47,845 nucleotides of DNA from Pengzhenrongella frigida (GTDB lineage: Bacteria > Actinomycetota > Actinomycetes > Actinomycetales > Cellulomonadaceae): contig NZ_SDWW01000036.1 in NCBI RefSeq assembly GCF_004168625.1, forward strand, positions 1 through 47,845, given 5' to 3'. Below the pieces are notes generated by a model, which saw only the letters and a list, made by a program, of their open reading frames with translations, did no database searches and had not been told where the DNA came from. Of the stretch, positions 15,219 to 20,291 are shown piece after piece. Positions within the stretch are counted from its first letter, which is position 1. Every line of letters begins with the position of its first letter. A program made the translations under genes and the position numbers.

Positions 15219-15294
15219 TCCGCCGGTCCCGTTCGTTGGGCAGGTCTAGCCTCCTCGAGGCAGTCTTCGGCCGAGCGCAACGCGACCCGGCCGG

Positions 15295-15300
15295 TACAAT
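15295..15300 (+). promoter_or_regulatory. -10 box for the principal sigma factor gene
   Basis: TACAAT, close to the housekeeping consensus TATAAT, lies 52 nt before the GTG at 15353. No clear -35 is present at 16-18 bp. The leader of about 45 nt ends with GAAAGG at 15341-15346. Confidence 0.5.
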
Positions 15301-15352
15301 ATCGAAGTACCCGGACCTCGTCTCCGGGCTAGGCGCTGCCGAAAGGTCGTTC

Positions 15353-16939
15353 GTGTCGTCCCTCCCCACAAGTCCTTCACTTCCGCGCGAGTTCGAGCAC
15401 CCTGCCCTGCAGGACCTCGTCGTGCGCGGCCGCACCCACGGAACCGTGGACGCAGAATCGTTCCGCACCGCATGTGAGTCCGCCGAGGTCAACGACGCGA
15501 AGCGGCTCAAAGCCGTCTACCGCGGCCTGTCCTCCGCGGGCATCGTCGTCTCGGAGCCCATCGTGGCAAAGACCAAGATCAAGGCACGGGTGGCGGCCGC
15601 AACCACCACCGCACGCAAGACCACCAAGGCCACCGTCGACCCCGAGACCGGTGAGTCGGTCGAGTCCACGAGTGCCGCGAAGCCCGCCACCAAGCCGGCC
15701 GCTGCGAAGCGGGCACCCGCCGTCAAGCGGATCCCCGGCGCGAAGAAGGCCGTGGCCCCCGCCGAGACCGACGAGGCCAGCCCCGCTCCGGCGGTTCGCA
15801 AGCCGGCCGCCAAGAAGGCCGTCTCTGCGCGGGCCGCCAAGGCCGCCGCGACCCGCGAGGCGAAGGCGGATGCCGAGTCCCGGGAGAACGACTCCGAGCG
15901 GGCCACCGACAACCACGCGGATGACGTCGTGGTCGTCAAGAAGCCCGAGGACGAGTCCGAGGATGCCGGGTACACCTACTCCGACGCCGACGACGACGAC
16001 GCGCCCGCCCAGCAGGTCGTCACCGCGGGCGCGACCGCCGACCCGGTCAAGGACTACCTGAAGCAGATCGGCAAGGTCGCCCTGCTGAACGCCGAGCAGG
16101 AGGTCGACCTCGCGAAGCGGATCGAGGCCGGCCTGTTCGCGGAGGAGCGTCTCAACGCCGGGATCAAGCTCGAGCCCAAGGTCAAGCGCGAGTTCGAGTG
16201 GATCGCGTCGGATGGTCGGCGCGCGAAGAACCACCTGCTCGAGGCGAACCTGCGGCTCGTCGTCTCCCTCGCCAAGCGGTACACCGGGCGCGGCATGCTC
16301 TTCCTGGACCTGATCCAGGAGGGCAACCTCGGCCTGATCCGTGCGGTCGAGAAGTTCGACTACACCAAGGGATACAAGTTCTCGACGTACGCGACGTGGT
16401 GGATCCGCCAGGCGATCACCCGCGCGATGGCTGACCAGGCGCGCACCATCCGCATCCCGGTGCACATGGTCGAGGTCATCAACAAGCTGGCGCGCGTGCA
16501 GCGGCAGATGCTCCAGGACCTGGGCCGCGAGCCCACCCCGGAGGAGCTCGCCAAGGAGCTCGACATGACCCCCGAGAAGGTCGTCGAGGTCCAGAAGTAC
16601 GGCCGTGAGCCCATCTCCCTGCACACCCCGCTCGGCGAGGACGGTGACAGCGAGTTCGGTGACCTCATCGAGGACTCCGAGGCTGTTGTCCCGGCCGATG
16701 CCGTCAGCTTCACGCTCCTGCAGGAGCAGCTGCACCAGGTTCTGGACACGCTCTCCGAGCGTGAGGCGGGCGTGGTGTCCATGCGCTTCGGTCTGACCGA
16801 CGGTCAGCCCAAGACGCTCGACGAGATCGGCAAGGTCTACGGGGTCACGCGCGAGCGCATCCGCCAGATCGAGTCGAAGACGATGTCGAAGCTGCGCCAC
16901 CCGAGCCGGTCGCAGGTCCTGCGCGACTACCTCGACTAG
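15353..16939 (+). CDS. sigA: Principal RNA polymerase sigma factor (SigA/HrdB/RpoD)
   Basis: This 528-residue group 1 sigma factor directs housekeeping transcription. A degenerate region 1.1 is at about residues 20-75 ([21 protein letters not shown]). A Lys/Ala-rich low-complexity linker (about 80-210) follows, then region 1.2 ([28 protein letters not shown]), region 2 ([52 protein letters not shown]), region 3 ([12 protein letters not shown]) and region 4 ([27 protein letters not shown]). The GTG at 15353 has GAAAGG 6 nt upstream. It ends at a strong terminator. The mycobacterial homologue Rv2703 has dut, suhB, DUF4193, ceoB and ceoC nearby, as does this window. Confidence 0.96.
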
Positions 16940-16954
16940 AGCGCGAGCGCGACG

Positions 16955-17029
16955 GCGGATGCGGTGTCATCCTCCGGCCAGAGGAGCCTTCGGGTGCCTC
17001 GCCGGAGGACGGCACCGCATCCGCTTTTT
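16955..17029 (+). terminator. Rho-independent terminator after sigA
   Basis: A long stem pairs GCGGATGCGGTG...CCTCCGGC with GCCGGAGG...CACCGCATCCGC, with small internal loops and an apical region around 16980-17000. It is followed by TTTTTGTTG at 17025, a classic U-tract. Confidence 0.88.
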
Positions 17030-17106: not shown

Positions 17107-17268
17107 GCGGGCGACGCCCCGACGCGCTACTTTGGTCATGCCCATGGCGTCGTGGGTAGACGGTTAGCACCGGCGTGCCGGGGACGACTAGATCAATGAA
17201 TCGTCTCGGGCGTCGCCTGCGGACCGCGCGGCGGTGCGTTCCCCACGCGACGCACCGCCGCTCCGCAG
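17107..17268 (+). ncRNA. Structured intergenic stretch, possible small RNA
   Basis: No convincing gene lies between the sigA terminator and the riboswitch. A TACTTT box (17128-17133) is followed by a nine-codon ORF (ATG 17138, MPMASWVDG). Further on, CCGGC/GCCGG and GACGA/TCGTC pairs form small hairpins. CTGCGGA + GCGGCGGTGCGT pairs with ACGCACCGCCGC + TCCGCAG (17217-17268), a 19-bp stem with a 4-nt bulge. An outer imperfect pair, GGCGACGCCCCGA with TCGGGCGTCGCC, encloses part of it. It may be a leader RNA, a small RNA or only a second terminator. I know no family that matches. Confidence 0.3.
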
Positions 17269-17328
17269 CTCGACGGACTTCACGGGCGAACAGGTCGGCT
17301 TAGGCCAAATGGGGCATACCTGCCGGAA

Positions 17329-17347: not shown

Positions 17348-17363
17348 CATGGGCTACCTTTGC

Positions 17364-17448
17364 GTCGTCAGCGAGAAGTGCAAACCCGCCGCGAGGCGGG
17401 GACGCAAAGCCACGGGACCCACCAGGGCCAGCCGGGCTGCCGAACGAC
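17364..17448 (+). promoter_or_regulatory. GEMM-I (cyclic dinucleotide) riboswitch aptamer
   Basis: The stretch has the conserved core of the c-di-GMP-I/GEMM family: GCAAACC, then a P2 stem CCGCC/GGCGG closed by a GCGA (GNRA) tetraloop at 17391-17394, then GGACGCAAAGCC. Next comes a variable second stem ending CAGCCGGGCTGCCGA, as in deltaproteobacterial members. GTCGT (17364-17368) pairs with ACGAC (17444-17448) as P1. The ribosome binding site AGGAG starts directly after P1, so translation control of the 65-residue ORF is likely. I cannot place the residue that separates c-di-GMP from 3',3'-cGAMP specificity with confidence. Confidence 0.8.
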
Positions 17449-17458
17449 AGGAGCAATC

Positions 17459-17656
17459 ATGAGCAACCTCAGCGGCGCCCTCCCCGAGAACGGCGCGAGC
17501 GGTCCTGCCTCCCACGGCGAGACGATCCCTGCTGACACTGCGGCCAGCGTCCCGGCTCGACCCCGGGCCGGCTCGTCCCTCGACGCGCTCGTGCGGCGCC
17601 AGGCGGCGGTCCGCACGGGTCAGCGGCTCGGCTTCGTGCCCGCCCAGGTCCGCTAG
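17459..17656 (+). CDS. Riboswitch-associated 65-residue protein, unrecognised
   Basis: A 65-residue ORF starts at an ATG with AGGAG 5 nt upstream, right behind the GEMM-type aptamer. An in-frame extension to 17234 would read through the riboswitch and is rejected. The N-terminal 40 residues are polar and Ala/Pro/Ser-rich, probably disordered (NLSGALPENGASGPASHGE). The C-terminal 25 are basic and may form a helix (SLDALVRRQAAVRTGQRLGF). No signal peptide, membrane segment or cysteine is present. It is monocistronic, ended by a perfect 15-bp hairpin. I recognise no family. Its position makes it the likely output of cyclic dinucleotide signalling. Confidence 0.65.
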   Translation: MSNLSGALPENGASGPASHGETIPADTAASVPARPRAGSSLDALVRRQAAVRTGQRLGFVPAQVR

Positions 17657-17715
17657 CGCGGTCGACCCCACCTCACTCGTCGACTGAGCTCGGTCGTCAC
17701 CCAGACCTCAGGCAG

Positions 17716-17751
17716 CAGAAGGGCCCCCTCCCAGCGGAGGGGGCCCTTCTG
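17716..17751. terminator. Strong bidirectional terminator hairpin
   Basis: Perfect 15-bp arms, CAGAAGGGCCCCCTC and GAGGGGGCCCTTCTG, surround CCAGCG. It lies between the riboswitch-controlled ORF and the convergent DUF7455 gene. Confidence 0.85.
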
Positions 17752-17787
17752 TCTGAGTCAACAGGGGTTAGCGCACTGGCTTCGTGC

Positions 17788-18153: not shown

Positions 18154-18161
18154 CGGGCCTC

Positions 18162-20291
18162 GTGTCGACCGTATCCACGCAGTCCAGCTACACCGCCCGG
18201 CATCTCTCCGTGCTCGGGGGGCTCGAGGCGGTCCGCAAGCGCCCCGGGATGTACATCGGCTCGACCGACTCGCGCGGCCTCATGCACTGCATGTGGGAGA
18301 TCATCGACAACGCGGTCGACGAAGCCCTCGCGGGCCACTGCGACCGGATCGAGATCGTGCTGCACGCCGACTCGTCGGTCGAGGTCAAGGACAACGGCCG
18401 CGGCATCCCCGTGGACATCGAGCCGAAGACGGGCCTGACCGGGGTCGAGGTCGTCTTCACCAAGCTGCATGCCGGGGGCAAGTTCGGCGGCGGTTCCTAC
18501 GGGGCCTCGGGCGGGCTCCACGGCGTGGGCGCGAGCGTCGTCAACGCCCTGTCGTCCCGGCTGGACGTCGACGTCGAGCGTGGCGGCAAGGTCCACCGGA
18601 TGACGTTCCATCGGGGCGTCCCGGGTACGTTCACCGACCCGGCGTCGGGCCCGTCCCCGGACTCCCCGTTCGCGCCCTTCGTCTCGGGGTCGGAGCTCGT
18701 CGTCGTCGGGCGTGCCGCCAAGGCCCGCACGAGCACCCGCGTGCGCTACTGGGCCGACCGTCAGGTGTTCCCGGCGAACGCCGTCTTCTCCTACGACGAG
18801 CTCGTCACCCGCGTGCGGCAGACGACGTTCCTGGTGCCGGGCCTGGCGGTGACGGTGCGCGACGAGCGTCGGCTGGCGGGCACCCCCGGCGCCGAGGAGT
18901 CGCACACCGAGACGTTCCAGCACTTGGGTGGGACGGTCGACTTCGTCGACTTCCTCGCCCCCGATGCCCCGCTGACGGGCACCTGGCACCTGACCGGTGC
19001 CGGGACCTTCGTGGAGACCGTGCCGGTGCTCGACGAACGGGGCCATCTCACCCCGCAGGCGGTCACCCGTGAGTGCGAGGTCGACATCGCACTGCGGTGG
19101 GGAACCGGCTACGAGACCGAGGTACGCACGTTCGTCAACATCATCGCGACGCCGAAGGGCGGGTCGCACCTGGCCGGGTTCGAGGCCGGGCTGCTACGGA
19201 CGTTGCGCAAGGCGGTCGAGGCCAACGCCCGTCGGCTGAAGATCACCGCGCGCGGGGACGCGGAGCGGATCGAGAAGGACGACGTCCTCGCCGGGCTCAC
19301 CGCGGTGCTCACCGTGCGCCTGGCCGAGCCCCAGTTCGAGGGGCAGACCAAGGAGCTGTTGGGGACCGCCCCGGTGCGTGCGATCGTCGCCAAGGTGGTC
19401 GACGTCGAGCTCGCCAAGCTCCTCAACGCCACGACGCGGGACCAGAAGACGCAGGCGACGATCCTGCTGGACAAGGTCGTCGCGGAGATGCGCGCCCGGC
19501 TCAGTGCGCGCAAGCAGAAGGAGATCTCGCGTCGCAAGAACGCGCTCGAGACCTCGTCCCTGCCGGCCAAGCTGGCCGACTGCCGCAGCGACGACGTCGA
19601 GCGCAGCGAGCTGTTCATCGTCGAGGGCGACAGTGCGCTCGGCACGGCCAAGCTCGCGCGGAGCTCGGACTTCCAGGCCCTGCTGCCCATCCGCGGCAAG
19701 ATCCTCAACGTCCAGAAGGCGTCCATCACGGACATGCTCAAGAACGTCGAGTGCGCGGCGATCATCCAGGTGCTCGGGGCCGGATCCGGCCGTTCGTTCG
19801 AGCTGGAGGCCGCCCGCTACGGCAAGATCGTGCTGATGACCGACGCCGACGTCGACGGCGCGCACATCCGGACCCTGCTGCTCACCCTGTTCTTCCGGTA
19901 CATGAAGCCGATGGTCGCCGCCGGACGTGTGTATGCGGCGGTGCCCCCGCTGCACCGGGTCGAGGTGATCGGCGCCGGGTCGCGGAAGAACGAGTACATC
20001 TACACCTACTCCGAGTCGGAGCTCGTGGCGACGCTGAAGAAGCTCCAGCGCGCGGGGAAGCGCTACAAGGAAGACATCCAGCGGTACAAGGGGCTGGGTG
20101 AGATGGATGCCGATCAGCTGGCCGAGACGACCATGGACCCGCGCCACCGCATGCTGCGGCGCGTCACGATGGACCACGCCATCGATGCCGAGAAGGTCTT
20201 CGAGCTGCTGATGGGCAGCGACGTCGCACCGCGCAAGGACTTCATCGTCGCGGGTGCCTCGGAGATGGACCGCAGCAACATCGACGCCTGA
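18162..20291 (+). CDS. parE: DNA topoisomerase IV subunit B (ParE) / GyrB-type ATPase
   Basis: This 709-residue ATPase subunit of a type IIA topoisomerase works with the ParC-type subunit encoded at 22260-24758. The GHKL ATPase domain shows EIIDNAVDEALAGH (catalytic Glu about residue 46), DNGRGIPVD and the GGLHGVGASVVNALS lid (about 122-136). A transducer domain and the TOPRIM domain follow (VEGDSALGTAKLARS near 487, DADVDGAHIRTLLLT near 563), with the C-terminal KGLGEMDADQLAETTMDP. The GTG at 18162 has a TACGCT box 8 nt upstream. The EGDSALGTAK motif differs from the EGDSAGG of standard gyrase, which supports ParE. Decatenation rather than supercoiling is inferred. Confidence 0.92.
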   Translation: MSTVSTQSSYTARHLSVLGGLEAVRKRPGMYIGSTDSRGLMHCMWEIIDNAVDEALAGHCDRIEIVLHADSSVEVKDNGRGIPVDIEPKTGLTGVEVVFTKLHAGGKFGGGSYGASGGLHGVGASVVNALSSRLDVDVERGGKVHRMTFHRGVPGTFTDPASGPSPDSPFAPFVSGSELVVVGRAAKARTSTRVRYWADRQVFPANAVFSYDELVTRVRQTTFLVPGLAVTVRDERRLAGTPGAEESHTETFQHLGGTVDFVDFLAPDAPLTGTWHLTGAGTFVETVPVLDERGHLTPQAVTRECEVDIALRWGTGYETEVRTFVNIIATPKGGSHLAGFEAGLLRTLRKAVEANARRLKITARGDAERIEKDDVLAGLTAVLTVRLAEPQFEGQTKELLGTAPVRAIVAKVVDVELAKLLNATTRDQKTQATILLDKVVAEMRARLSARKQKEISRRKNALETSSLPAKLADCRSDDVERSELFIVEGDSALGTAKLARSSDFQALLPIRGKILNVQKASITDMLKNVECAAIIQVLGAGSGRSFELEAARYGKIVLMTDADVDGAHIRTLLLTLFFRYMKPMVAAGRVYAAVPPLHRVEVIGAGSRKNEYIYTYSESELVATLKKLQRAGKRYKEDIQRYKGLGEMDADQLAETTMDPRHRMLRRVTMDHAIDAEKVFELLMGSDVAPRKDFIVAGASEMDRSNIDA

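Follow-up and report, generated by a model that had tools for sequence, protein, structure and literature searches.

A class I c-di-GMP riboswitch ahead of a small-protein gene in Pengzhenrongella frigida, and its pairing with riboswitch-controlled BldC-like genes

The riboswitch and its locus

The DNA considered here, referred to as the window, is a stretch of 47,845 bases from the 4.3 Mb genome of Pengzhenrongella frigida, whose family is represented by 221 genomes. Only one Rfam family scores over its cut-off in the window: RF01051 (c-di-GMP-I), which cmscan places at 17369-17444 on the + strand with 57.3 bits (E 1e-8; gathering score 35), and whose model is covered at full length, from position 1 to 87. 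Around this RNA lie the following features, from upstream to downstream.

15245-16939 (start approximate), + strand: principal sigma-70 factor gene, upstream of the RNA (Pfam Sigma70 r1.2, r2, r3 and r4)
17355-17360, + strand: candidate -10 element TACCTT, picked by eye, which would put the RNA start at about 17366-17368
17364-17369, + strand: 5' strand of P1, GUCGUC, which the predicted fold pairs with the bases immediately preceding the ribosome site
17369-17444, + strand: class I c-di-GMP (GEMM-I) riboswitch aptamer (cmscan, RF01051)
17379, + strand: U at the equivalent of G20 of the Vc2 aptamer, Rfam model column 11 (cmscan alignment and letter)
17380-17386, + strand: GCAAACC core (letters)
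17385-17400, + strand: P2 hairpin CCCGCC-GCGA-GGCGGG (letters; base-paired both by cmscan and by the minimum free energy fold)
17400-17411, + strand: GGACGCAAAGCC (letters)
17406, + strand: A equivalent to A47, kept (alignment and letter)
17429-17443, + strand: CAGCCGGGCTGCCGA (letters)
17440-17441, + strand: CC containing the C92 equivalent, both C (alignment and letters)
17444-17448, + strand: 3' strand of P1, ACGAC, pairing with GUCGU (predicted fold and letters)
17449-17453, + strand: Shine-Dalgarno sequence AGGAG, directly 3' of P1 (letters)
17459-17656, + strand: 65-residue small-protein ORF, from its ATG to the end of its stop codon (matched by the A1 profile with E 1.7e-7 in a search of the genome itself)
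17716-17751, no strand assigned: perfect inverted repeat between convergent genes, with two 16-nt arms (17716-17731/17736-17751) and a 4-nt loop
17788-17997, - strand: DUF7455 gene, convergent (PF24254, E 5.9e-25)
18159-20291, + strand: gene of the DNA gyrase B/topoisomerase IV B type (PF00204, PF00986, PF01751, PF02518)

The RNA genuinely belongs to an established riboswitch class; one base of its ligand pocket is uncommon. A reading made earlier from the sequence alone had assigned it to the class I c-di-GMP family, pointing to GCAAACC, a GNRA-capped P2, GGACGCAAAGCC and CAGCCGGGCTGCCGA; all four are present, and the RF01051 search that it proposed, with 57.3 bits against a threshold of 35, bears out the family. 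In P2, six pairs (17385-17390/17395-17400) close the GCGA loop at 17391-17394. Support beyond chance comes from the RF01051 score and from the locus itself, since the RNA and small ORF lie between a sigma-70 gene and a gyrB-type gene in all five genomes of the genus (neighbors recognized by short motifs, and DUF7455 in four of the five). The distance from the sigma gene to the riboswitch ranges from 144 to 798 nt among these genomes. At one further locus, L082, the RNA and its flanks read the same as those of L046. Compared with the c-di-GMP-I class as a whole, the window RNA shares the full-length match, the GNRA-looped P2, the equivalents of A47 and C92, and a position in a gene leader; it differs in having U at the G20 position and in preceding a small-protein target for which the literature searched gave no description.

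The related family RF03167 (c-di-GMP-I-GGC) was considered and ruled out for the window RNA. In permissive scans of short stretches, from which RF01051 is dropped as the lower-ranked overlap of this member of the same clan, the window RNA aligns to RF03167 along its whole length; however, its score of 54.8 bits is below that family's own cut-off of 59, and the base at 17406 is A where the GGC consensus has G. RF03167 is over its cut-off in 16 of the 20 loci scanned (14 of 17 from the family, the window's being counted in the 17, and two of three from other families). Since A stands at the A47 position in all six alignments displayed, the RF03167 label should be treated with caution for these RNAs.

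Two hairpins precede the riboswitch. One (16955-17024; -60.8 kcal/mol, z -8.8) follows the sigma-70 gene, is itself followed by a T run, and is likely that gene's terminator; the other (17205-17275; -45.3 kcal/mol, z -4.0) lies between the sigma gene and the riboswitch. Downstream, the sequence-only reading had the small ORF closed by a perfect hairpin. The 16-bp repeat is real, and the fold of 17690-17770, which spans it, has a z of -5.3, but the terminator scan lists no site at 17716-17751 and no T run is seen after the repeat; we infer that it serves as a terminator.

The ribosome site is stacked against P1, as had been noticed from the letters, with AGGAG (17449-17453) immediately after ACGAC, and this arrangement suggests a translational OFF switch. 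A scan for the sigma-70 consensus gave no promoter-like site for the riboswitch leader. Pairing of the 5' strand with the ribosome site gave no signal of covariation when native partners were compared with swapped ones: mean duplex energies, native versus swapped, were -8.28 versus -8.15 kcal/mol at 67 short-ORF sites, -9.06 versus -9.26 kcal/mol at 64 BldC sites, and -8.53 versus -8.03 kcal/mol at 35 long-ORF sites, where three of 20 swaps were as good. With native and swapped energies so similar, the argument from covariation that P1 reaches into the ribosome site was dropped. The leader folds only moderately better than its shuffles (z -1.85); thus, given also the lack of covariation at the ribosome site, folding does not decide between an ON and an OFF switch.

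The pocket base and the likely ligand

Column 11 of the Rfam model corresponds to G20 of the Vc2 aptamer. The bases G20, A47, and C92 belong to the binding pocket (PMC9049102). G20 is one that contacts the ligand. Among the 175 family sites read, base 20 is G in 165, A in seven, C in two, and U in one. The window genome's only other copy of the RNA (L001) has C at this position, and two of the three pyrimidine-20 sites among the 175 are thus both RNAs of one genome. By a rough estimate such a coincidence is unlikely by chance for this genome, yet judged post hoc it is only borderline.

The loss of G20 could mean that the U20 pocket, together with its C20 sister, has switched to another cyclic dinucleotide, for example 3',3'-cGAMP, or has become promiscuous; in detail, U20 would meet the Hoogsteen face of an adenine while C92 would still pair with G. 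Both the switch and this geometry are considered unlikely. Rfam does keep separate pocket variants (RF03167), rare variants of the c-di-GMP-I class bind c-AMP-GMP (PMC7266159), and neither RNA of the window genome has the G that 165 of the 175 family sites keep. However, finding two rare states together in one genome carries little weight when assessed post hoc, and the homologous small-protein genes persist whether base 20 of the RNA ahead of them is G, A, or U (L181, L183; L334, L335; L002). Moreover, pyrimidines at position 20 are found elsewhere in at least 98 (C) and at least 24 (U) pattern matches, some of them visibly chance matches, spread over many phyla; the viral collection gave none. 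A unique novelty at position 20 is thereby ruled out, and the pyrimidine is better described as a recurrent state. The sequence-only reading had suggested cGAMP. The window RNA resembles the 3',3'-cGAMP (GEMM-Ib) riboswitches in its fold and in having an altered base 20, but their signature is A20, and the base at 17379 is U. The suggestion is thus not backed by the known signature, although U20 makes the ligand preference less certain. An A at position 20 does occur in the same genus, at L040, which belongs to a BldC-like unit.

Other unusual matches were seen in this survey. In the Fermentibacteria/Aegiribacteria metagenome-assembled genomes (MAGs) of L065, L104, and L126, two GEMM-I-like matches lie about 92 nt apart, and position 20 is U or C in every one of them; L140, L144, and L146 also have two matches each; these pairs are possible tandem switches with unusual pockets. 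In the Bacteroidetes MAG AlinenLipids_bin-7249, five contigs (L071, L079, L084, L096, L102) have CGCAAACC...GGGACGCAAAGCC stretches that are almost the same; these seem to be copies of a repeat and not riboswitches.

The search for GGDEF proteins that had been proposed as a check returned 45 matches in the window genome, compared with 37, 20, 34, and 34 in four congeners (domain matches, counted irrespective of catalytic residues), which points to c-di-GMP synthesis in the host. The targets of the RNA in the family include EAL phosphodiesterases, recognized by Pfam at L045 and L176 and by eye at L192 and L249. These two observations make c-di-GMP the likely ligand; judged from sequence, it is the likeliest one for the window RNA, with a preference that is uncertain given U20.

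The riboswitch might instead be decaying in this species, the loss of G20 having ended useful binding and left the gene constitutive. Among the five counterpart loci of the genus the window's RF01051 score of 57.3 bits is the lowest (the others range from 61.1 to 65.3 bits), and both copies in the genome are without G20. Nevertheless, the remaining core elements are intact, and c-di-GMP signaling has not been lost, since the genome has the most GGDEF matches in the genus; decay is considered quite improbable.

A small-protein family behind the RNA

The RNA is present in 116 of the 221 family genomes. A sample of 396 genomes from the order, some of them from the family, has it in 41, of which 39 are over the cut-off. 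Once duplicates had been taken out, 175 family sites were read, a minimum since the large genus g4 was covered in part. By automatic classification, 65 precede BldC-like genes, 70 short ORFs, and 37 longer ORFs, and three have no called ORF; 11 of the 70 short ORFs are without the tail motif described below, and most of these look like wrong ORF calls. The longer targets include the EAL phosphodiesterases and secreted proteins, one of which has DUF4214. At 23 RNA sites in other families of the order, the targets are secreted proteins, response regulators, and unplaced proteins, with four sites lacking a called ORF; neither a BldC-like ORF nor the small-protein tail was found among them. FlhA matches occur in 114 of the 221 family genomes, against 116 for the RNA, but a strict flagellar link is ruled out by genomes such as G004, G013, G018, and G022, which carry the RNA and have no FlhA match. 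Of the 18 g2 genomes read, 11 have the small-protein unit and flhA on one contig, 11-27 kb apart; in the window's genus the neighbor of the unit is instead the sigma-70 gene.

Chemotaxis genes, named by eye, are near the small-protein unit in L284, L285, and L289. In L284 and L285 (genus g2) a short peptidase-like gene, with a VanY-type domain by Pfam in L285, is transcribed away from the unit. In L286, L287, and L288 (g4, g5) a small membrane ORF comes next on the unit's own strand; in L286 it has a weak, sub-cut-off SHOCT match.

The small proteins are 38-66 residues long and lineage-specific. Their alignment, A1, has 40 rows, all first found behind the RNA, with the window protein as a seed row; members have a variable N-terminus, an (L/V)xxWAxxA helix, and a hydrophobic-P-x-Q tail. 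In the window's genus, Q replaces the W of the helix motif. The 65-residue ORF had been described as unrecognized, and so it proves in the databases: seven small proteins tested had no Pfam match up to E 1, and in NCBIfam the only match was a weak one of the odd member L225 (E 0.085, far below the cut-off). In the literature searched, which leaves most subscription journals outside its coverage, no description of this target was found.

A protein-profile search of the 221 family genomes, which itself used no RNA information, gave 110 matches at E<=1e-5 in 106 genomes. The RNA is immediately upstream of every one of the 110, in 103 cases by listed RF01051 coordinates and in seven by reading the DNA, and it is also upstream of the next weaker match (G034, E 3.4e-4); matches weaker than this among those listed lie mostly inside longer ORFs. 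The 110 of 110 is not wholly independent, since a position behind the RNA was how the 40 A1 seed proteins had been picked. A sample of 297 genomes from the order had profile matches (E<=1e-4) in eight, all belonging to the window's family. The small-protein family is thus found only behind c-di-GMP-I RNAs among the genomes searched. The sequence-only reading had proposed that the ORF may be a dedicated effector, an idea to be given up if homologs were never accompanied by the RNA. All 110 accompanied homologs and the GGDEF-rich genome uphold that idea as far as linkage goes; overall, what stands of that reading is the RNA class and the link to the target; the effector role is putative, and the hint of cGAMP lacks the backing of the A20 signature.

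One could suppose that the 65-residue ORF is a leader or spurious ORF and that the real target lies elsewhere. The ORF is short and without a database match, and the inverted repeat ends the unit soon after it. However, the gene that follows is convergent, and about 500 bases, including that repeat, separate the ORF from the first downstream gene on the + strand. In addition, ORFs with this length range, helix, and hydrophobic-P-x-Q tail come after the RNA in five genera (g1, g2, g4, g5, g12). The motif [VILFAM]PxQ is present in the last 20 residues of 59 of the 70 unfiltered short ORFs behind the RNA and in three of 209 control ORFs. A spurious ORF is accordingly held to be very improbable.

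The AlphaFold2 model of the small protein has low confidence (pLDDT 69.3, pTM 0.35) and consists of one helix, at residues 40-52, in an otherwise disordered chain; a docking peptide fits such a model better than an enzyme does. Many small proteins of g4 (e.g., L254 and L004) end in AA (ALAA, HAAA). An ssrA-like degron at these ends was considered and rejected: the tmRNA tags of six genomes end in RTDFALAA, which is a loose likeness, and the window protein lacks the feature.

Pairing with BldC-like genes and its possible meaning

The window genome contains two such RNAs, and the second, L001 (G000:C71:82254-82327), precedes a gene for a 79-residue protein with a MerR-type helix-turn-helix (HTH) (HTH_17 1.2e-13, MerR 2.5e-9). 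By sequence this product is BldC-like, a term that here covers BldC itself and a paralog alike. Neither this partner gene nor the U at 17379 figures in the sequence-only reading. Across the five genus genomes, c-di-GMP-I RNAs precede BldC-like HTH genes at L001, L036, L040, L043, L047, and L048. In the 36 genomes with listed over-cut-off sites that were read (genera g1, g2, g5, g10, g11, g12), an RNA-controlled BldC-like gene is present in 35, the small protein in 32, and both in 32; the small protein is missing in G103, G152, G153, and G154, and the BldC-like gene in G154. The literature searched, again with most subscription journals outside its coverage, yielded nothing that joins BldC, c-di-GMP, and a riboswitch, and matches for Cellulomonas with riboswitch and c-di-GMP look unrelated.

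The two products also resemble each other in places. The tail motif [VILFAM]PxQ of the small proteins is present in 41 of 62 distinct BldC-like proteins, compared with three of the 209 control ORFs, and the WAxxA helix of many small proteins recalls the segment of BldC around Trp31, presumably the W of RWAKAG. On the other hand, the small proteins are without an HTH match, and the window's genus has Q instead of W. Set beside MerR-like winged HTH proteins, the small protein shows no Pfam match and a single helix in its low-confidence model. Descent of the small protein from BldC is not supported. Although the mean score against a BldC profile is 2.6 bits for the real set of 58 (which includes the degenerate BldC proteins L223 and L225) versus -0.9 bits for shuffles, the best real small protein, at 8.5 bits, is within the shuffled range (best shuffle 8.9 bits), and the one hhalign comparison with BldC gave a probability of 9.6 (E 0.0033). 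Two proteins behind the riboswitch, L223, which is clearly BldC-like by profile, and L225, which is in the shuffle range and possibly BldC-derived, lack conserved HTH residues and keep the tail (VPTQVR and LPTQVR).

In BldC, a developmental regulator of Streptomyces, Trp31 lies in the head-to-tail interface (PMC5859096). Judged from these motifs, the small protein might be a c-di-GMP-gated microprotein that caps BldC and blocks its head-to-tail assembly on DNA: it may keep a stub of the BldC tail together with a helix bearing the oligomer-interface tryptophan, the two riboswitch-controlled products would be of opposite sign, and L223 and L225 would be intermediates in its origin. Since the window's genus has no tryptophan there and homology is unproven, this idea is regarded as improbable.

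The RNA family, its tight link to the small-protein family, and the common pairing with the BldC unit are observed. They are probably best explained if the 5' leader of this single small gene is a c-di-GMP riboswitch and the gene's product is a docking protein in BldC's c-di-GMP regulon. Binding of a cyclic dinucleotide, most likely c-di-GMP, would stabilize P1, although with lower affinity or looser selectivity, as is probable when G20 is U. The 3' strand of P1, held against the ribosome site, would then reduce small-protein translation when ligand is abundant. The small protein, mostly disordered apart from one helix and the hydrophobic-P-x-Q tail, would dock on a partner from the regulon that c-di-GMP governs and that includes BldC.

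The RNA belongs to a known class; its small-protein target is undescribed as far as the literature searched goes. Development in Streptomyces is under c-di-GMP control, exerted through proteins such as the RsiG-WhiG switch (PMC8325347). In the present family of actinobacteria, a layer of riboswitches appears to let a single signal govern both a BldC-like regulator and the unnamed small proteins. The system would allow concrete and inexpensive tests of BldC-like proteins and c-di-GMP outside Streptomyces, of the role of a protein family found only behind a riboswitch, and of the response of natural U20, C20, and A20 pockets to different cyclic dinucleotides. Most worth the attention of specialists is the RNA-linked small-protein family and its pairing with RNA-controlled BldC-like genes.
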